Shown piece after piece: positions 17,151 to 63,460 of a DNA stretch of 64,000 nt. The translations under genes and the position numbers were made by a program. Source of the DNA: Faecalibacter rhinopitheci (GTDB lineage Bacteria; Bacteroidota; Bacteroidia; Flavobacteriales; Weeksellaceae); assembly GCF_015234135.1 (NCBI RefSeq), contig NZ_JADGIK010000003.1, positions 124,001 through 188,000 on the forward strand, in the 5' to 3' direction. The notes beneath the pieces were generated by a model. That model was not told where the DNA came from. It ran no database searches and saw only the letters and a program-made list of their open reading frames with translations. Each line of letters begins with the position of its first letter. Within the stretch, counting starts at the first letter, position 1.

Positions 17151-17199
17151 ACTTAATATTCACTCTTCGCCCCGAAAGTGATCTTATTTTTAGATTATA

Positions 17200-17361
17200 C
17201 TATGGCAGGTTTCCTGACTTGTTTTATCCTTTTAAAGCCTTCCCATCTTCGTTTTGAAAACAGTGGCAGAAGTTGTAAAAGAATTTTACTAAAACATACA
17301 GTTGCGGGGACAGTTCTGGATTTTAACCAGATTCCCTTTTAACTCTTTTTGAGCACCATAG
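17200..17361 (-). promoter_or_regulatory. Cobalamin riboswitch (full-length class)
   Basis: On the minus strand the RNA shows P1 closing pairs CTATGG (17356-17361) with CCATAG (17200-17205), the GGGAATCTGG...CCAGAACTGTCC core, CGCAACTGTA, a GCCACTG element (17261-17267), GATGGGAAGG, and the 3' B12 box AAGTCAGGAAACCTGCC (17204-17220). These are the hallmarks of the cobalamin riboswitch with its peripheral domain. The start codon of the BtuB-like gene follows 50 bases downstream. A hairpin (CACTTTCG with CGAAGAGTG, about 17161-17180) just before the start may be part of the expression platform. Confidence 0.93.
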
Positions 17362-17365
17362 ATCA

Positions 17366-17395
17366 CAAATATATAAATATTTAAAGCTTAAACAA
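17366..17395 (-). promoter_or_regulatory. Promoter of cobalamin uptake operon
   Basis: On the minus strand TTG (17393-17395), a 19-base spacer and TATATTTG (17366-17373) lie directly upstream of the riboswitch, placing the transcript start at about its first paired base. Confidence 0.7.
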
Positions 17396-25511: not shown

Positions 25512-25636
25512 ATATACACGTTATACTTTAGCTATTATATAATGTGATAATGTTTTTGTGGTGGTTTTAGAAATAAATATCATTTCTAATTTTTTTGAAT
25601 TGGCTTCATTCCGCGAAAGCATTATCAATAAAACTT

Positions 25637-25731
25637 AAATGTGGTAACCTGACTTATCATGAAAATGAATTACAGTTGCGCGACAGTTCGTGAATTGCAC
25701 ACGATTCCCCAAGCATTAAGTTCGAGCATTT
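25637..25731 (-). promoter_or_regulatory. Compact cobalamin riboswitch
   Basis: On the minus strand: closing pairs AAATG (25727-25731) with CATTT (25637-25641), then GGGGAATCGTG...CACGAACTGTC, the CGCAACTGTAA core and a divergent B12 box AAGTCAGGTTACCACA. The pairing of the changed P1 bases is retained. Between CAACTGTAA and the B12 box only about 14 bases remain, so the GCCACTG/GATGGGAAGG peripheral domain present in the other copy is absent, as in class II cobalamin (AdoCbl-variant) riboswitches. The only gene downstream on this strand is the thioesterase at 25092-25511. Confidence 0.8.
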
Positions 25732-25733
25732 TG

Positions 25734-25741
25734 CAAAGATA
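25734..25741 (-). promoter_or_regulatory. -7 box upstream of compact riboswitch
   Basis: TATCTTTG on the minus strand matches TAnnTTTG and would start transcription at the first riboswitch stem. No good TTG was found at -33. Confidence 0.5.
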
Positions 25742-25831
25742 AAGCAGAATACTGAATTTTTACTTGAAAATATTTCTAATTCAATATTTTAAAATATATC
25801 TAGTAAATTAGAGCCTATAACCAGCACAGGA

Positions 25832-30484: not shown

Positions 30485-30557
<73 letters not shown>

Positions 30558-30565
30558 CTAAATAT

Positions 30566-30638
<73 letters not shown>

Positions 30639-30645
30639 CATAGGC

Positions 30646-30685
30646 AAAAGAGTTTCTTTTTAATTAAAGAAGCTCTTTTTTTTTT
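30646..30685 (+). terminator. Intrinsic terminator of tRNA block 1
   Basis: AAAGAGTTTCTTT pairs with AAAGAAGCTCTTT (one mismatch), followed by T residues. Confidence 0.8.
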
Positions 30686-30782
30686 GCGATATACTTTCCA
30701 CTAGATCAATATATTAAAGAAATATTTTTGGCTTATTTAAATATATTTAGTAAAAAGTAGTGTTTATTTGATATATCTACCT

Positions 30783-30790
30783 TAACTTTG
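30783..30790 (+). promoter_or_regulatory. -7 box of tRNA block 2
   Basis: TAACTTTG, 11 bases upstream of copy 3. This lies outside the repeated block, so the second pair has its own promoter sequence; the -33 region is weak. Confidence 0.5.
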
Positions 30791-30801
30791 TCGTACAATA
30801 T

Positions 30802-30874
<73 letters not shown>

Positions 30875-30882
30875 CTAAATAT

Positions 30883-30955
<73 letters not shown>

Positions 30956-30962
30956 CATAGGC

Positions 30963-34832: not shown

Positions 34833-34839
34833 TTTTCGT

Positions 34840-34913
34840 CGGGGTGGCAGGATTCGAACCTGCGACCTCCTGCTCCCAAAGCAGGCGCGATGACCGGGCT
34901 ACGCTACACCCCG
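34840..34913 (-). tRNA. tRNA-Pro (TGG), copy 2
   Basis: Minus-strand cloverleaf with anticodon TGG in CCTGCTTTGGGAGCAGG, acceptor CGGGGTG/CACCCCG and T arm GCAGG-TTCGAAT-CCTGC. Identical to the copy at 34961-35034; 47 bases separate them. Confidence 0.95.
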
Positions 34914-34960
34914 ATTAAGGTGTAATTTTTTCGATAATCAAATTTCAGGTAAAAAATTGT

Positions 34961-35034
34961 CGGGGTGGCAGGATTCGAACCTGCGACCTCCTGCTCCCAA
35001 AGCAGGCGCGATGACCGGGCTACGCTACACCCCG
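34961..35034 (-). tRNA. tRNA-Pro (TGG), copy 1
   Basis: Identical to the neighbouring copy. It is the promoter-proximal gene of the tandem pair. Confidence 0.95.
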
Positions 35035-35096: not shown

Positions 35097-36278
35097 TTAA
35101 TATTTTTCAGAAAATTTCATATATGTTTCTAAATCTTTATCTCCACGACCCGAAAGATTCAGAACCACAATGTCTTGCGATTTAAAATCGATTTTTTCTA
35201 AAGCCGCTAAAGCGTGTGAAGATTCTAAGGCTGGAATGATTCCTTCTTCTCTTGTCAGTAAAAATGCGGCGCGTAATGCTTCATCATCCGTTGCATTTAA
35301 AAACGTTCCACGTCCTGTTTTGAATAAATGAGCGTGTAATGGTCCAACACCAGGATAATCTAATCCCGCAGAAATCGAATACGGTTCTACAATTTGTCCG
35401 TCTTCATCTTGCATCAACATCGTTTTACTTCCGTGGATAATACCTTCTGTTCCTTTTTGCATAGTCGCAGCCGTTTCTCCAGAATCAACCCCTAATCCAG
35501 CCGCTTCAACGGCAATTAATTTTACTTCTTCATCGTTTAAGAAATGATAAAATGCGCCAGCTGCATTACTTCCTCCACCCACACAAGCAATCACATAATC
35601 CGGTGTTTCTTTTCCGTATTTTTCTAATAATTGTTTACGAATCTCTTCCGAAATAATCGCTTGAAATTCAGCAACAATCGCAGGATAAGGATGAGGTCCA
35701 ACCACAGAACCAATTAAGTAATACGTCTCAGGGTTATTGATCCAGTAACGAATCGCCTCGTTTGTGGCATCTTTTAAAGTTTTACTTCCTGAAGTGGCTG
35801 CTACAACAGTTGCCCCTAACATTTGCATACGCGCTACATTTGGTGCTTGACGTGCAATATCAATTTCGCCCATAAAAACAGTACATTCTAAACCTAATAA
35901 GGCACAGATGGTTGCCGTTGCAACACCGTGTTGACCGGCTCCAGTTTCCGCTAAAATTTTTGTTTTTCCCATTCGTTTTGCCAACAAAGCTTGTCCAATG
36001 GTATTGTTAACTTTGTGTGCACCTGTATGGTTTAAGTCTTCACGTTTTAATAAAATGTTTGCCCCATATCGTTCCGATAATTTTGGTGCATAATATAATG
36101 GACTTGGTCGACCCACATAATCTTTTAATAAACCACGAAATTCACTTTGGAATTCTTCCGTGTAAAAGTATTGGTCAAAAGCTTCTTTTAATTCTTGACA
36201 GTTATGATGTAATAATTCAGGGATAAATGCTCCTCCAAAATCACCATAAAATCCGTTTTCGTCTACTGAATATTTCAT
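35097..36278 (-). CDS. trpB: Tryptophan synthase beta chain
   Basis: A 393-residue PLP enzyme joining indole and serine to tryptophan. PLP lysine is Lys89 in [19 protein letters not shown] and the C-terminal SGRGDKDL phosphate-binding loop are present. The frame is open further upstream to 36317, but [16 protein letters not shown] at 36278 is the family start. It ends the trpEGDCFB operon, 13 bases after trpF. The partner trpA is not next to it but at 62.7 kb. Confidence 0.95.
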
Positions 36279-36291
36279 TTTGTTTGTTCTC

Positions 36292-36963
36292 TTAATTTTG
36301 TTCAATTCGACCATCAATCGTGTCGATAAATTGTTTTACTTTTTCAATGTTTTTGATTCCGGGTTCAATTTCAAAACCACTGTTGATATCAAAACCGATG
36401 CATTGGGAATGTTGGAAATTTTTCAAGACCAACGCGTCTTCTAATTGAATTCCACCACTTAATAAAAAGGGTGTTGATAACTGATAGGTTTTCAAAAGTT
36501 GCCAATCAAACTTCTGACCAGTTCCGCCGTATTGATTTGATTTGGTGTCAAATACAAAACTATCAACAACTTGTTGATAACCTCTTAATTCTTCAAAATC
36601 TGTATCTTCATGGATACCGACAGCTTTCCAAATTTTAAAATCCAAAAACTGTTCAGAAGTTAATAATTGTTGATGTTTGGCTTCGATTAATTCTTGACAA
36701 TATGCTGGCGTTTCGTCTCCGTGTAATTGCACCACATCTAATTCGAATTTTTGTGCTTTTTGAATAATAGTTTCAATGGATTCATTCACAAAAACACCTA
36801 CACGTTCAGCATTTGGAAAAATGTCGAAAATGGTTTCATCTTTTACAAATCGTGGAGATTTTGGATAAAAGATAAATCCCACATAATCGGGTTCGATTTC
36901 GGTTAAGGCTTTAAAGTTTTCAACCGAATTATTGCCACATACTTTTACTTGAAATCTTTTCAT
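36292..36963 (-). CDS. trpF: Phosphoribosylanthranilate isomerase
   Basis: A 223-residue TIM-barrel enzyme catalysing the Amadori rearrangement of phosphoribosylanthranilate. [11 protein letters not shown] (catalytic Cys8 region; the usual motif is KICG), VQLHGDE and [17 protein letters not shown] (catalytic Asp) are seen. Its ATG overlaps the trpC TAA by one base. Cys and Asp catalytic residues are kept. Confidence 0.92.
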
Positions 36964-37745
36964 TACAATTGATTCACAAATTCTTGAAAGGCTTTCCCTG
37001 GATTTTCGTTTTTCATAAAGTTTTCACCAATTAAAAACGATTGAAATCCTGCAGCTTTTAAATCTTTGACCACTTCTGGATCAGAAATTCCACTTTCCGC
37101 GACTTTAATCAAATCCTCGGGTAATTGCTTTAATATCTGTTTCGATTTCTCCGTATCCACTTCAAAAGTTTTTAAATTTCTGTTGTTGATTCCGATTAAA
37201 TCGATGTATTCATTGACTTTTTCCAATTGATCTTCCGAATGAATTTCCAACAAAACTTCTAATCCGATTTCTTTCGCCAATTTGGCTAAATCGTGCACTT
37301 CATCTTTCGTTAAACATTCGGCAATCAATAACATCAAATCGGCTCCAATTGCTTTCGTTTCGTATACTTGGTAGGCATCCACAATAAAATCTTTACGAAG
37401 CACAGGAATCGATAAAACTTCATTCGCTTGTTGTAAATCTTTAATGCTTCCGCCAAAGAAATTTTCATCCGTTAAAACCGAAACGACAGAAGCACCAAAT
37501 TGTTCATAACCTAAAACAACATCTTCCACTTTAGCATTTTCGTTAATAAAACCTTTCGATGGCGATTTACGTTTAAATTCCGCAATAATTCCCGTTTTGG
37601 ATTCATCTAAAACTGAAGCTTTCGCCGAACGAACCGGATTTAAAAAGTGAATACTTTGTTTTAAATACTCAATGGATTGAACTTGTTTTTTTTGTTGAAC
37701 TTCGATTCGTTTTTGTTCAACGATTTGGTTTAATATATTTTTCAT
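36963..37745 (-). CDS. trpC: Indole-3-glycerol phosphate synthase
   Basis: A 260-residue TIM-barrel enzyme. Catalytic landmarks are IAEFKRKSPSKG (Lys), VLTDENFFGGS, LRKDFI (Lys) and LIGINNRNLKTF, then AESGIS and FLIGENFM. MKNILNQIV at 37745 is the natural start; an open frame reaches 37817 inside trpD. Start and trpD stop overlap as ATGA, indicating coupled translation. In this species it is separate from trpF rather than fused. Confidence 0.94.
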   Translation of the reverse strand: MKNILNQIVEQKRIEVQQKKQVQSIEYLKQSIHFLNPVRSAKASVLDESKTGIIAEFKRKSPSKGFINENAKVEDVVLGYEQFGASVVSVLTDENFFGGSIKDLQQANEVLSIPVLRKDFIVDAYQVYETKAIGADLMLLIAECLTKDEVHDLAKLAKEIGLEVLLEIHSEDQLEKVNEYIDLIGINNRNLKTFEVDTEKSKQILKQLPEDLIKVAESGISDPEVVKDLKAAGFQSFLIGENFMKNENPGKAFQEFVNQL

Positions 37746-38728
37746 CGGTTGGTTAGTTTTTGAAAGATTTCGAATGCTTTTTTTGATGCTAAACTTTCGT
37801 TTGCAATCGCAACACATTCTTTCAAATCTTTGGTTGGATGAATCGTTTTTAATCCTAAAGCCGAATTGGCTAACACCACTTCCTTCTGTGCTTTGGTGCT
37901 TTCATTCTGTAATACGGACAAGAAAATTTTTGCGTTTTCGTCTACCGTTTTTCCTCCTGCGATTTGATCGGCTTGAATCGTTTCTAATCCAAAATCCTCA
38001 CTTTGGTACAAAAATTCACCTTGATTCGTATACACTTTTGTTGGTGACGTTAATGAGATTTCATCGTATCCAGCTAAGGCTGTTGAAATCGCATAGTTAT
38101 TACCCGAATTTTGCATCACATAATGGTACAAACGAGCGGTTTTCACATCAAATGTTCCTAAGTTTTGAAAATCGGGTTGTACCGGATTCACTAAAGGTCC
38201 CATTAAATTAAAGAACGTTTTTACCCCTAATTCACGTCTTAAATTCGCGACTTTTTTCAATGCGGGATGAAATAAAGGTGCGTGTAAAAAGGTTAATCCA
38301 ACTTCCTCATATTCTTGGTTTAATTTCGCTTCCTCCGAAGAAAATTGATACCCAAATTGCTCCAACATATTCGAAGAACCACTCACCGATGAAGCACCAT
38401 AATTTCCTTGTTTAATCACTTTTTCGCCTGTTCCGGCAATCACAAAAGCACTTAATGTCGAAATATTGAATGTATCTTTTCCATCTCCACCGGTTCCAAC
38501 AATATCTAATGCTTGTTTTGGTAAATTTACTTTTAAACATAAATCCAATAAAGCTCTACGATAACCTTTTAATTCGTCCAACGTAATATTACGCATATTG
38601 AAAACCGTTAAAAACGAAGCCAACTCGATATCCGAATACTTGGATTCAGAGATATCCACCATAATTTGGTAGGCTTCATCTTCGTTTAACGTATAGTTTT
38701 CAAACAATTGATTCAATAACTTTTTCAT
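37742..38728 (-). CDS. trpD: Anthranilate phosphoribosyltransferase
   Basis: A 328-residue enzyme that transfers phosphoribose to anthranilate. The PRPP/metal motif is VGTGGDGKDTFNIST, followed by KQGNYGASSVSGSSNMLEQFG and the NLMGPLVNP segment. It lies 3 bases after trpG and overlaps trpC by four. TrpG is a separate gene rather than fused to TrpD. Confidence 0.94.
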   Translation of the reverse strand: MKKLLNQLFENYTLNEDEAYQIMVDISESKYSDIELASFLTVFNMRNITLDELKGYRRALLDLCLKVNLPKQALDIVGTGGDGKDTFNISTLSAFVIAGTGEKVIKQGNYGASSVSGSSNMLEQFGYQFSSEEAKLNQEYEEVGLTFLHAPLFHPALKKVANLRRELGVKTFFNLMGPLVNPVQPDFQNLGTFDVKTARLYHYVMQNSGNNYAISTALAGYDEISLTSPTKVYTNQGEFLYQSEDFGLETIQADQIAGGKTVDENAKIFLSVLQNESTKAQKEVVLANSALGLKTIHPTKDLKECVAIANESLASKKAFEIFQKLTNR

Positions 38729-38731
38729 CGC

Positions 38732-39298
38732 TTAAGCTTTTAACCAGTTTTCAATCATTTGTTCACCTTCTGGCGTTAATATTGATTCCGGATGAAACTG
38801 AACTCCACGCACATCATATGTTTTATGTCTTAATGCCATGACTTCACCTTTAGGTCCTTTCGCTGTAATTTCTAAAGTATCAGGAAAGTTTTCATTTGAA
38901 ACGACCCAAGAATGGTAACGACCAACTTGTAAGTGAGACGGCATATTTTGGAATAAAATTTCGTCCGAATGAACCACTTTAATTTCCGATTGTACGCCGT
39001 GAAAAACTTCTTGCGTATTCAATAATGTTCCTCCAAAAACTTCACCAATTGCTTGTTGCCCTAAACAAATTCCGAAAATGGATTTGGTCGGCGCATATTT
39101 CTCAATAATTGGTTTTAATAAATTCGCCTCGTCCGGAATTCCAGGGCCTGGAGAAAGTAAGATTTTATCATATTGTTCGACGTCTTCCAATGCAATTTCA
39201 TCGTTGCGAAAAACATCAATATTATCCGTGAATTTGCGTAGTGCGTGAACGATATTATAAGTAAACGAATCGTAATTATCTAAAACTAAAATTTTCAT
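38732..39298 (-). CDS. trpG: Anthranilate synthase component II (glutamine amidotransferase)
   Basis: A 188-residue class I amidotransferase supplying ammonia to TrpE. LSPGPGIPDE, nucleophile Cys78 in FGICLGQQAIG and the VQFHPES catalytic His/Glu are present. It might also serve p-aminobenzoate synthase, which often shares this subunit; no pabB was seen here. Confidence 0.93.
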   Translation of the reverse strand: MKILVLDNYDSFTYNIVHALRKFTDNIDVFRNDEIALEDVEQYDKILLSPGPGIPDEANLLKPIIEKYAPTKSIFGICLGQQAIGEVFGGTLLNTQEVFHGVQSEIKVVHSDEILFQNMPSHLQVGRYHSWVVSNENFPDTLEITAKGPKGEVMALRHKTYDVRGVQFHPESILTPEGEQMIENWLKA

Positions 39299-39301
39299 AG
39301 A

Positions 39302-40696
39302 TTAAATGTTTTCTGCTAATTGAATGGCTTTGCGTAAAGCGCCTAATTTGTGATTAACTTCTTGTAACTCGTTTTCTTCAATAGATTTGGAAACGACTCC
39401 AGCACCCGCTTGGAAATACAATGTATTTTGTTTACTGACGAATGTTCGAATCGCAATAGCCATATTAATATCTCCATTAAATCCTAAATACCCAATCGCT
39501 CCACCGTAAATTCCACGGTTTTGATTTTCGTATTGATCCAATAATTCCATTGCCTTAAATTTTGGAGCGCCTGATAACGTTCCAGCCGGAAAAGAATCGG
39601 CGAAAACTTTCATTGTATTGATAGAAGGTTCGATGTCGGCAATCACTTTCGAAACCATATGAATCACGTGAGAAAACACTTGGATTTCTTTGTAAGATTC
39701 TACGGTAACCGCTTTCGAATTTCGACTTAAATCATTTCGAGCCAAATCAACTAACATCACGTGTTCTTCGTTTTCTTTTGGATCTTTGATTAACTGATCG
39801 GTTAATTGTTTATCCAAATCTGGTGAACCGGTACGACGAACCGTTCCAGCAATCGGGTGAATTTGTGCTTGATTATCGCGAACAATCAATTGGGCTTCAG
39901 GCGAAGATCCTAAGATTTTATAATTTCCATAATCGAAATAAAATAGGTAGGGAGAGGGATTGATGGAACGTAAAACGCGATAAACATTGAACTCGTCACC
40001 GGAGAACTTTTGCTTGAATTGTCTTGATGGTACAATCTGGAAAACATCACCTCTGAAACACGATTGCTTACATTGGCTCACGATGTTTTTAAATTCTTCG
40101 TCCGTCAAGTTGGATTCGATTTCACTTTCGATTTGGAATGGATATTCCACAAAAGTTTTGTTTCGAATGATATCTTTAATTTCCTCAAAACGAGATTCAG
40201 TTTGATTATTTTGGAATTCCAAATACTGAATTTCATTATGGAAATGATTGAAAACAATAATGTTTTGATAGAATGAATAACGAACTTCTGGAATCGTCGC
40301 TTCATTTCCTTCATTCTTAAATTTTACCGTTTCGAAATACGGAATGGCATCCCAACCAATGTATCCAAATAAACCATTAACGATTAAATCTTCTTCCGTT
40401 TCAATTTTAAATTGAGTAGCAAAATTCTTGATGACTTCTGCTAATTCTTGCCCTTGTAACGGATAATTTTTTGTTTCACCATTCGCATAAGATTCAGTTA
40501 CAATTCCTTTATTTATCTCAATTGTCGCAATGGGATTCAGACAAATAAAAGAGTTGGCATCTGATTTCGAATGGTAATCCGAACTTTCTAAAAGCAATGC
40601 ATTTGGAAATATATCACGCAATTTTAAGTACATCTGTACCGGAGTAGTTAGATCTCCTAAGCGTTTTTCAGATTGTGTTTTGAAAGTTAGATTCAT
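39302..40696 (-). CDS. trpE: Anthranilate synthase component I
   Basis: A 464-residue chorismate-using enzyme. The N-terminal LLESSDYHSK region is the place of Trp feedback binding; the catalytic core shows FRGDVFQIVPSRQF, PIAGTVRRTG, DLARNDLSR and GAPKFKAMELLDQYE. The start MNLTFKTQSEK at 40696 is preferred over an open frame to 40768. First gene of the operon, preceded by a leader peptide and attenuator. Confidence 0.95.
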   Translation of the reverse strand: MNLTFKTQSEKRLGDLTTPVQMYLKLRDIFPNALLLESSDYHSKSDANSFICLNPIATIEINKGIVTESYANGETKNYPLQGQELAEVIKNFATQFKIETEEDLIVNGLFGYIGWDAIPYFETVKFKNEGNEATIPEVRYSFYQNIIVFNHFHNEIQYLEFQNNQTESRFEEIKDIIRNKTFVEYPFQIESEIESNLTDEEFKNIVSQCKQSCFRGDVFQIVPSRQFKQKFSGDEFNVYRVLRSINPSPYLFYFDYGNYKILGSSPEAQLIVRDNQAQIHPIAGTVRRTGSPDLDKQLTDQLIKDPKENEEHVMLVDLARNDLSRNSKAVTVESYKEIQVFSHVIHMVSKVIADIEPSINTMKVFADSFPAGTLSGAPKFKAMELLDQYENQNRGIYGGAIGYLGFNGDINMAIAIRTFVSKQNTLYFQAGAGVVSKSIEENELQEVNHKLGALRKAIQLAENI

Positions 40697-40742: not shown

Positions 40743-40775
40743 AAAAAAAGGCTTGTCGGTTCCGACAAGCCTTTT
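40743..40775 (-). terminator. trp attenuator terminator
   Basis: On the minus strand AAAAGGCTTGTCGG pairs with CCGACAAGCCTTTT, followed by a T-run, between the leader peptide stop and trpE. An alternative pairing of GTTGGTTC in the leader (40803-40810) with GAACCGAC (40755-40762, in its loop and 3' arm) would block it. Confidence 0.9.
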
Positions 40776-40798
40776 CTACATATAACTACATAGCGCTA

Positions 40799-40861
40799 TT
40801 ACGAACCAACGTTTTGCTGTTCGAATTTCCACCACCAGTTATTTGTAAATAATGTTTTCAT
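40799..40861 (-). CDS. trpL: trp operon leader peptide
   Basis: A 20-residue open frame, ATG at 40861 to TAA at 40799, encoding MKTLFTNNWWWKFEQQNVGS. Three Trp codons in a row (TGG at 40829-40837) are the sensing codons: low charged tRNA-Trp would stall the ribosome there, free the downstream GTTGGTTC segment for the antiterminator pairing and allow reading into trpE. With ample Trp the ribosome reaches the stop codon, covers that segment and the terminator forms. It is too short for standard gene calls. The -7 box ends 5 bases before the ATG. Confidence 0.9.
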   Translation of the reverse strand: MKTLFTNNWWWKFEQQNVGS

Positions 40862-40866
40862 TGGGA

Positions 40867-40896
40867 CAAATGTATAAAGGATTTTATTTTCTGCAA
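40867..40896 (-). promoter_or_regulatory. trp operon promoter
   Basis: On the minus strand TTG (40894-40896), a 19-base spacer and TACATTTG (40867-40874). The expected transcript start lies at or next to the leader peptide ATG. Confidence 0.75.
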
Positions 40897-41032
40897 ATAT
40901 TTTTGGGTTAAATTTTTAAAAATGAATTTAGATTTAGTTTTAAATAGAAAATTCATAAAAGTAAATAATTCATAAAAATCTATTATTTTTAGAATCGAAA
41001 TTGAATTGATTCTAATCACAAAAAAATATACC

Positions 41033-41803
41033 ATGTCTTACGAGAATTTAATAGTAGAAATAGAAAATAGAATTGCAGTAGTTACTTTAAATCGTCCACA
41101 AGCTTTAAATGCGTTAAACAAAGGATTATTAGATGATTTATCTGCATTTTTTGATGAAGCCAAAACAAACGATGATATCCGTGTAGTGATCTTAACTGGA
41201 GCTGGAGAAAAATCATTTGTTGCTGGAGCTGATATCAAAGAATTTGCAAGCTTTAATGCAGAAGAAGGGCAACAATTGGCAGGAAAAGGGCAAGAGCGAG
41301 TTTTCAATAAAGTAGAGAATTTTTCGAAGCCAGTTATTGCTGCAGTCAATGGATTTGCTTTAGGAGGTGGATTAGAATTAGCCATGGCAGCGCATTTCCG
41401 TATTGCTTCAACAAATGCAAAATTAGGGTTACCAGAAGTGACGTTAGGATTAATCCCTGGATATGGAGGAACACAACGTTTGCCAAAATTAATCGGAAAA
41501 GGTAGAGCGATGCAAGCCATTATGACAGCGGATATGTTTACAGCTGAAAAGGCAGAACAAATTGGCTTAGTGAATGAAGTGGTGGAACAAGTTGATTTAT
41601 TGAATCGTGCAAAAGAAATAGCTGGTAAAATCACGAGAAATTCTTCGATTGCAATTGCTCAGGCCATCAATGCCATCAATGCATCGGATAAAGAAAATGG
41701 ATTTGCAATCGAAATAGAGAGTTTTGGTAACCTTTTTGAAGAAGAAGACTTCAAGGAAGGAACGACAGCCTTTGTCGAAAAACGAAAACCAAATTTTAAA
41801 TAA
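41033..41803 (+). CDS. Enoyl-CoA hydratase/isomerase family protein
   Basis: A 256-residue crotonase-fold enzyme, start ATG at 41033 (the frame is open to 41006 without a better start). GAGEKSFVAGADIKEFA (oxyanion-hole segment) and ALGGGLELAMAAHFRIAS with the catalytic GLPEVTLGLIPGYGGTQRLPK region carry the two catalytic glutamates. It adds water to trans-2-enoyl-CoA in fatty-acid or amino-acid breakdown. No other beta-oxidation gene is adjacent. Confidence 0.9.
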   Translation: MSYENLIVEIENRIAVVTLNRPQALNALNKGLLDDLSAFFDEAKTNDDIRVVILTGAGEKSFVAGADIKEFASFNAEEGQQLAGKGQERVFNKVENFSKPVIAAVNGFALGGGLELAMAAHFRIASTNAKLGLPEVTLGLIPGYGGTQRLPKLIGKGRAMQAIMTADMFTAEKAEQIGLVNEVVEQVDLLNRAKEIAGKITRNSSIAIAQAINAINASDKENGFAIEIESFGNLFEEEDFKEGTTAFVEKRKPNFK

Positions 41804-62660: not shown

Positions 62661-62697
62661 AATAAAAAAGGAGCTCGATTTGAGCTCCTTTTTTATT
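62661..62697. terminator. Bidirectional terminator of tyrS and trpA
   Basis: AATAAAAAAGGAGCTC pairs with GAGCTCCTTTTTTATT. Its right end overlaps the trpA stop codon by two bases. Confidence 0.85.
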
Positions 62698-63460
62698 ATT
62701 TGATAGTAGCAATAAAATCGTCTACAGATTTTTCTAAATCGTTCGAATTTTCAATGGCTCTTAAAAAAGCACTTCCTATAATTGCTCCGTCCGCAAACCC
62801 CCATGCTTTTTCTACATCAGTTTTCGTAGAAATTCCAAATCCAATTTGGTAAGGTTTAGTTAAACCTAAATTTTTTAAACCAGCTAAAAAATCTTCATTA
62901 TAATTAGCTTCTGTAGCACCTGTCGTTGCAGAATTTGATACAACATAAACAAATCCGGAAGTTGCGTCGTTAATTGCTTTGATACGGTCTTTTGGTGTTT
63001 GTGGAGTAATTAAGAAAACAACTTTTTGATTGTATTTTTCAAATAAAGATTGATGCTCTTTTAAATAAATTTCAAATGGCATATCAGGTAAAATTAATCC
63101 AGAGACTCCTGACTCTTTACATTCTCCTAAAAACTTCTCTATTCCAAATTTCATCATTTGGTTATAATATCCCATCAATACAATAGGCGTATGCATTTCT
63201 TCTTTGATGCTTTTTAATTGATCAAAAAGTGTTTTTAAATTCATTCCATTAGCTAATGCTTTCTCACTTGTAGCTTGGATAGTAGGGCCATCTGCCAATG
63301 GATCCGAATATGGAATTCCAACCTCGATAATGTCAACATTGTTATTTTGCAATTGCTTTAAAACAGTTGGGGTATCCATTAAATTTGGATACCCCGCAGT
63401 TGTATATATCGTAATTAAATTCTCTTTTTTCTCCTGAAATAATAAATCCAGTGTTTTCAT
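62696..63460 (-). CDS. trpA: Tryptophan synthase alpha chain
   Basis: A 254-residue TIM-barrel enzyme that splits indole-3-glycerol phosphate. The catalytic Glu46 (IIEVGIPYSDP) and Asp57 (LADGPT) and the phosphate loop GFGISTKTDVEKA are intact. It is far from the trp operon (27 kb from its end) on the same strand, and adjoins an endonuclease-type gene with a 1-base gap. No Trp-codon leader peptide is seen here, so its control must differ from that of trpEGDCFB or depend on the upstream gene. Confidence 0.95.
   Translation of the reverse strand: MKTLDLLFQEKKENLITIYTTAGYPNLMDTPTVLKQLQNNNVDIIEVGIPYSDPLADGPTIQATSEKALANGMNLKTLFDQLKSIKEEMHTPIVLMGYYNQMMKFGIEKFLGECKESGVSGLILPDMPFEIYLKEHQSLFEKYNQKVVFLITPQTPKDRIKAINDATSGFVYVVSNSATTGATEANYNEDFLAGLKNLGLTKPYQIGFGISTKTDVEKAWGFADGAIIGSAFLRAIENSNDLEKSVDDFIATIK

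Follow-up and report, generated by a model that had tools for sequence, protein, structure and literature searches.

The window analyzed here, a 64,000-nucleotide stretch of the Faecalibacter rhinopitheci genome, carries on its minus strand a set of tryptophan biosynthesis genes in the order trpE-G-D-C-F-B, as originally predicted (Table 1). The nearest named relative of the encoded TrpE is that of Faecalibacter macacae, with 91% identity. The remaining gene, trpA, lies outside this operon, where it follows another gene at a distance of 1 nt and lacks its own WW leader, and this separate placement means that an attenuator ahead of trpE would not control it. A separate trpA is also found in three other genomes (G021, G044 and G049), and in a further one (G010) it lies ∼6 kb behind trpE. 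Elsewhere in the window, two cobalamin riboswitches score above the Rfam cut-off (17187–17375, 109.8 bits, and 25622–25770, 36 bits, both on the minus strand). A pair of tRNA-Pro genes follows trpB (34838–35034, minus strand), and four tRNA-Met genes are arranged as two pairs (30485–30956, plus strand).

Table 1. Features of the trp locus, in coordinates of the window
Feature	Position	Strand	Remarks
trpA	62696-63460	minus	outside trpEGDCFB; about 22 kb upstream of trpE
-33 element TTG	40894..40896	minus	19-nt spacer to -7 box
-7 element TACATTTG	40867..40874	minus	type used by the Bacteroidota housekeeping sigma factor; 5 nt ahead of leader ATG
Predicted +1	40861..40862	minus	A of ATG or A before it; inferred from F. 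johnsoniae box-to-start spacing
Leader peptide trpL MKTLFTNNWWWKFEQQNVGS	40799..40861	minus	20 codons, stop TAA; frame also present in 14 distinct relatives
Three adjacent Trp codons TGG TGG TGG	40829..40837	minus	inside trpL frame
RF01692 outer stem	40777..40847	minus	encloses Trp codons; 40847-40837 with 40787-40777; MFE fold, Rfam alignment
1:2 hairpin	40802..40823	minus	40823-40816 paired with 40810-40802
Region 2, antiterminator upstream strand GTTGGTTC	40803..40810	minus	directly ahead of stop codon
Region 3, antiterminator downstream strand GAACCGAC	40755..40762	minus	terminator loop and top of 3' arm
Intrinsic terminator	40743..40776	minus	14-pair stem 40776-40745, 4-nt loop, 7 T at 40749-40743
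trpE	39302..40696	minus	first structural gene; start taken at ATG 40696
trpG, trpD, trpC, trpF, trpB	35097..39298	minus	behind trpE

Upstream of trpE lies a compact leader, comprising a short frame with three adjacent Trp codons, an outer stem that encloses these codons, a 1:2 hairpin and an intrinsic terminator positioned between the leader and trpE. The WWW frame with its stop codon and the terminator stem with its T-run were both found as they had been described from the sequence; the outermost pair of the terminator stem is a G-U. In the MFE fold, the AUG and the rest of the frame's first 14 bases are not part of the stems, and a Shine-Dalgarno site is absent at this leader. The whole leader folds with an energy z of −5.9 relative to shuffles, none of 200 being as good, and positions 40881–40764 match the Rfam family RF01692 (Bacteroid-trp) across the full model (1–131) with 61.4 bits, against a gathering cut-off of 49. 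A chance origin of the leader as a whole is ruled out by this folding energy and by passage of the Rfam cut-off.

The RF01692 family was published by Weinberg et al. 2010 (PMC2864571), and the match described here is the sole one in the source genome at E 0.001. The element shares with the family a full-length covariance match, a frame of tandem Trp codons within the motif, the outer stem around these codons, trp genes downstream and a Bacteroidota host; the model itself ends inside the 5' arm of the terminator. As the match lies above the cut-off, the attenuator itself is of an already known kind, and we are close to certain that the element is a trp attenuator. The new part of this catalogued element is its probable leaderless start, a predicted lineage variant; the passages covered from the family's publication are silent on leaderless translation (PMC2864571).

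Region 2 and region 3 can form a competing helix of eight pairs, one of them U-G, and this pairing too agrees with the original prediction. When considered alone, the helix is marginal (p 0.045, from 200 dinucleotide-shuffled versions of the upstream side), and for it alone a chance origin is not fully excluded; its support comes from such pairing being kept in relatives. In a set of 158 leaders, which includes related leaders that are not independent of one another, the helix reached p 0.05 against shuffles in 50 and p 0.01 in 21. Of the best uninterrupted helices in these leaders, 71 engage the terminator loop plus the 3' arm, 60 the 5' arm, 26 the loop and one a mixture; 148 of the 158 fall within −35 to +12 of the stop end. 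Among the 14 distinct sequences that make up the close-relative covariation set, the antiterminator carries one compensatory change (G-C to A-U, in L016) and two changes to G-U, and its end pair is lost in four sequences. With this single compensatory pair, the antiterminator score is matched by 70 of 500 shuffles, and that of the other stems by 78 of 500; covariation among the closest relatives is too thin to decide. A wider count of 57 leaders (33 distinct pair sets), to which we give little weight as these leaders had been chosen for pairing, has 87% of loop positions paired, compared with a mean of 50% and a maximum of 64% in shuffles. With bulges allowed, across 196 leaders that include some chance WW frames, the median energy is −16.45 kcal/mol for a leader's own duplex and −13.0 for strands set against the hairpins of other leaders, a weak separation in which 21% of cross pairs equal or beat the own-duplex median.

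The trp attenuator of E. coli comprises a leader peptide with tandem Trp codons, alternative 1:2, 2:3 and 3:4 pairings, and a terminator before trpE. The Faecalibacter element shares the leader peptide, the terminator and, as predicted, the pairings, but has no Shine-Dalgarno site and a predicted 5' leader of just 0–1 nt. The two also differ in the partner of region 2, which in E. coli is the 5' arm of the terminator and in Faecalibacter is the terminator loop together with the first four bases of the 3' arm. The proposal that this locus works by exactly the proteobacterial alternation is supported as to the attenuation logic and inexact as to the pairing partner, which is not mainly the 5' arm. 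When the suggested conservation check was run, the WWW frame, the terminator and a competing pairing all proved to be kept in relatives, which supports the reading of the locus as a ribosome-mediated attenuator.

Sequence and comparison show the frame, its Trp codons, the stems and the promoter box with its spacing. From these elements we infer a start site, leaderless initiation, ribosome stalling and a regulatory outcome, as follows. RNA polymerase would start at the A of the leader ATG or one base earlier, and a ribosome would load on the 5' end of the transcript as soon as this is free. With ample Trp-tRNA, the ribosome at the stop codon (40801–40799) would cover region 2, such that the terminator forms and transcription ends before trpE. 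When Trp-tRNA is short, a ribosome stalled at the Trp codons would open the outer stem and the 1:2 hairpin; the freed region 2 would then pair with the loop of the terminator and the upper part of its 3' arm, the terminator would fail, and trpEGDCFB would be transcribed. With no translation, the outer stem and 1:2 hairpin would sequester region 2, again allowing the terminator to form.

The predicted start rests on the promoter, TTG-N19-TACATTTG, for which the coordinates given in the original prediction were exact to the base. The TACATTTG box at 40874–40867 is the sole strict TAnnTTTG on the minus strand of the intergenic space (173 bases, 40861–41033). In F. johnsoniae, probable promoters are reported to start 4 or 5 nt past such boxes, a spacing present in 241 of 434 candidate promoters, namely those classed as probable promoters (PMC6847099). 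Combined with the 5-nt gap between box and ATG, this spacing predicts a 5' leader of 0–1 nt, and we consider the trp leader transcript probably leaderless. As only 241 of the 434 F. johnsoniae candidates have this spacing, the start could be elsewhere; a box with one mismatch, AATATTTG at 40901–40894, could yield a leader of ∼30 nt.

To place this promoter in a wider setting, we compared trpE-upstream regions across the family, using 72 of the 80 TrpE-bearing genomes among 110 family genomes (the other eight being G016, G050, G058, G065, G081, G097, G102 and G107). A WW or WWW leader is present upstream of trpE in 68 of the 72 loci, just 21 of which had been picked up in a genome survey with RF01692. 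The model therefore underrepresents the spread of the element by a wide margin. In many of the leaders that RF01692 misses, the partner of region 2 is the 5' arm of the terminator. In that survey, which used stricter filters for large sets, RF01692 was found at E ≤0.001 in 41 of 296 family genomes, 28 of which pass the cut-off. Among named Bacteroidota genomes, 76 of 80 TrpE loci have a WW frame in the 600 nt ahead of trpE, and one of the four negative loci (L042) has just 2 nt of upstream sequence.

A strict TAnnTTTG is found within 50 nt upstream of the leader in 58 of the 68 family leaders. With the start codon picked for the smallest strict gap among ATG, GTG and TTG, the gap from box to start is 4–6 nt in 52 of these 58 (5 nt in 30, 4 nt in 19 and 6 nt in 3), in 15 of the 19 genera with the leader. 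The 52 short-gap starts comprise 50 ATG and 2 GTG (L223 and L249). The remaining six gaps are 7, 8, 10 (twice), 12 and 22 nt; by genus, the longer gaps occur in g8 (7 nt), g7 (8 and 22 nt) and g10 (10–12 nt), and g30 has no near box. The base preceding the ATG is A in all 30 leaders with a 5-nt gap. At a gap of 4 nt, the base that follows a 4-nt spacer already belongs to the start codon, which leaves the gap-5 result alone informative. Outside the family the gaps are mixed, being 4–8 nt at several loci of Flavobacterium and other flavobacteria, 17–20 nt in five of eight order-mates of a neighboring family, and 28–34 nt in many Dyadobacter relatives.

Other attenuators of the same family are arranged differently. 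Of 60 family genomes, 28 yielded hisG loci; 27 of these have a His-run leader, 24 with a strict box within 45 nt, and the gap is 12–23 nt in every one of the 24. Of 30 pheA loci read, five have a convincing Phe/Tyr-run leader, and the four of these with a strict box have gaps of 18, 20, 25 and 18 nt. The source genome itself has gaps of 5 nt for trp, 19 nt for his and 25 nt for phe. In a small control sample of ordinary ORFs from family loci, which includes related loci and takes the first ATG as start, 24 of 192 have a strict box, with a gap of 4–6 nt in 2 of the 24 and of 15–30 nt in 14. A short gap as a general property of attenuators in the family is ruled out by the his and phe leaders, and as a general property of genes by the boxed ORFs. 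The sequences ahead of the start codons also differ: at −2, −3 and −4, few trp leaders have an A (0.12, 0.17 and 0.10; 52 leaders), a base that is common there ahead of his leaders (0.69, 0.69 and 0.73; 26 leaders), and the scarcity of A before trp leaders at −5 and farther upstream is partly forced by the box. The proposed start at or near the leader ATG is therefore backed both by the family-wide spacing between promoter and ATG and by the his and phe controls. Box gaps at the numbered control loci (L250–L277, His-run, hisG; L285, L287, L291, L296 and L307, Phe/Tyr-run, pheA) span 12–25 nt.

The short gap is not kept everywhere. Ten of the 68 family leaders lack a strict box in the nearest 50 nt; eight of these were inspected, and in seven a strict box lies farther upstream, so these leaders look leadered and speak against a universal leaderless rule. 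In four leaders of genus g9 (L207, L225, L237 and L243), a segment with a small inverted repeat, GACARTTNNATCTGTC, separates the old start region from the WWW frame; four g9 sisters keep the 5-nt gap. Three leaders of genus g23 (L230, L232 and L235) have a different inverted repeat, AACTGCNTCAAAGCAG, downstream of the −7 box and ahead of the WWW frame. Each repeat has one match per locus and none in other loci (307 loci), and either RNA hairpins or DNA operators could be represented by them; three inverted-repeat loci gave no Rfam match above cut-off. The former +1 ATG of L225 is now the start of a 9-codon frame. These inserted segments indicate that the leaderless form can be lost.

An attenuator with a leaderless peptide was originally described as an unusual design, which is apt for the Bacteroidota and less so beyond, as precedents exist in other phyla. 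Mycobacterial polycysteine uORFs are reportedly leaderless. In these and in the ilvB attenuators of Corynebacterium, a leaderless transcript encodes an amino-acid leader peptide, as predicted for the trp element, but the hosts are Actinobacteria, in which leaderless mRNAs are common, and other amino acids are involved. The Corynebacterium ilvB attenuators are leaderless, and the trp leader of C. diphtheriae is reported to have yielded no start site (PMC5784534, PMC11857589). In the alphaproteobacterium Sinorhizobium meliloti, the trp attenuator RNA (trpL, or rnTrpL) opens directly on the leader-peptide ATG, the arrangement predicted here, and the peptide is reported to act also in trans on other mRNAs (PMC7298713). 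In Flavobacterium psychrophilum, of the same class of bacteria as Faecalibacter, attenuation of amino-acid operons has been inferred from a start-site map; pheA and hisG are named, and a leaderless trp leader is not named in the passages covered (PMC9723704). Leaderless mRNAs are reported to be rare in the Bacteroidota: they make up 5.5% in F. psychrophilum (PMC9723704), 13% of leaders in F. johnsoniae are ≤10 nt (PMC6847099), and about 3.7% of 5' UTRs in B. thetaiotaomicron are <10 nt. Among the matches listed from the main texts of open-licence papers, there is no account of a leaderless trp leader in Bacteroidota, conserved or otherwise.

Trp operons of other bacteria are also served by TRAP, T-box and riboswitch-type devices. 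A protein- or tRNA-binding leader of this sort, in place of ribosome-mediated control, has nothing specific in its favor here; RF01692 alone scores above its gathering threshold, the weaker matches listed belong to unrelated families, and in-frame Trp codons recur across Bacteroidota, all of which makes such a device highly improbable. A less distant alternative keeps the same attenuator but places the main start farther upstream, the peptide being translated from a leadered transcript like other Bacteroidota genes without Shine-Dalgarno sites. The one-mismatch box would allow this, and longer leaders do occur in g10, in parts of g9 and g23 with their far-upstream box, in five of the eight order-mates and in many Dyadobacter relatives. 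However, the strict box is unique in the intergenic space and has a TTG at 40896 with fitting −33 spacing, the 4–6 nt gap recurs in 15 genera, and the A-rich upstream context of the leadered his leaders is missing. We therefore consider a leadered transcript at this locus unlikely, and favor with good confidence an RF01692-type ribosome-mediated attenuator with translation of the leader peptide from a predicted leaderless transcript.

It is a separate question whether the predicted leaderless start has any function. The short gap could be a by-product without consequence, the ATG lying near +1 only since the outer stem must begin early, and the switch would then function alike with or without a 5' leader. 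Leadered and leaderless versions with a nearly identical peptide coexist in g9, as would be expected on such a view, but a by-product should also drift, and yet gaps of 4, 5 or 6 nt are kept in 15 genera, and his gaps are kept at 12–23 nt. We regard this explanation as quite plausible, if short of probable. More tentatively, leaderless initiation may be a selected working part of the Weeksellaceae-type trp switch, a suggestion about which we are rather doubtful. The start codon would be fixed at the transcription start, and the first ribosome would load at the earliest moment by 5'-end (70S-type) initiation, and not by the A-rich, Shine-Dalgarno-less route apparently used by the his and phe leaders. 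If so, the trp switch would read the state of the ribosome as well as Trp-tRNA, and bacteria of other phyla would have arrived at this design independently, as with trpL of S. meliloti. A trp leader kept leaderless across 15 genera, beside leadered his and phe leaders in the same genomes, would offer a clean natural system for Shine-Dalgarno-independent starts on a bare AUG, in which one could ask whether the mode of initiation alters the response of an attenuator; the g9 sister species with the gained 5' segment would be a ready comparison.

The four of 72 family loci in which a WW leader is absent next to trpE belong to genus g17 (three loci) and genus g19 (one locus). The g17 genomes have RF01692 matches some kilobases away from trpE, and their trp operons may begin with trpB. 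In one of them (L024), the gene behind the RF01692 leader resembles trpB by eye.
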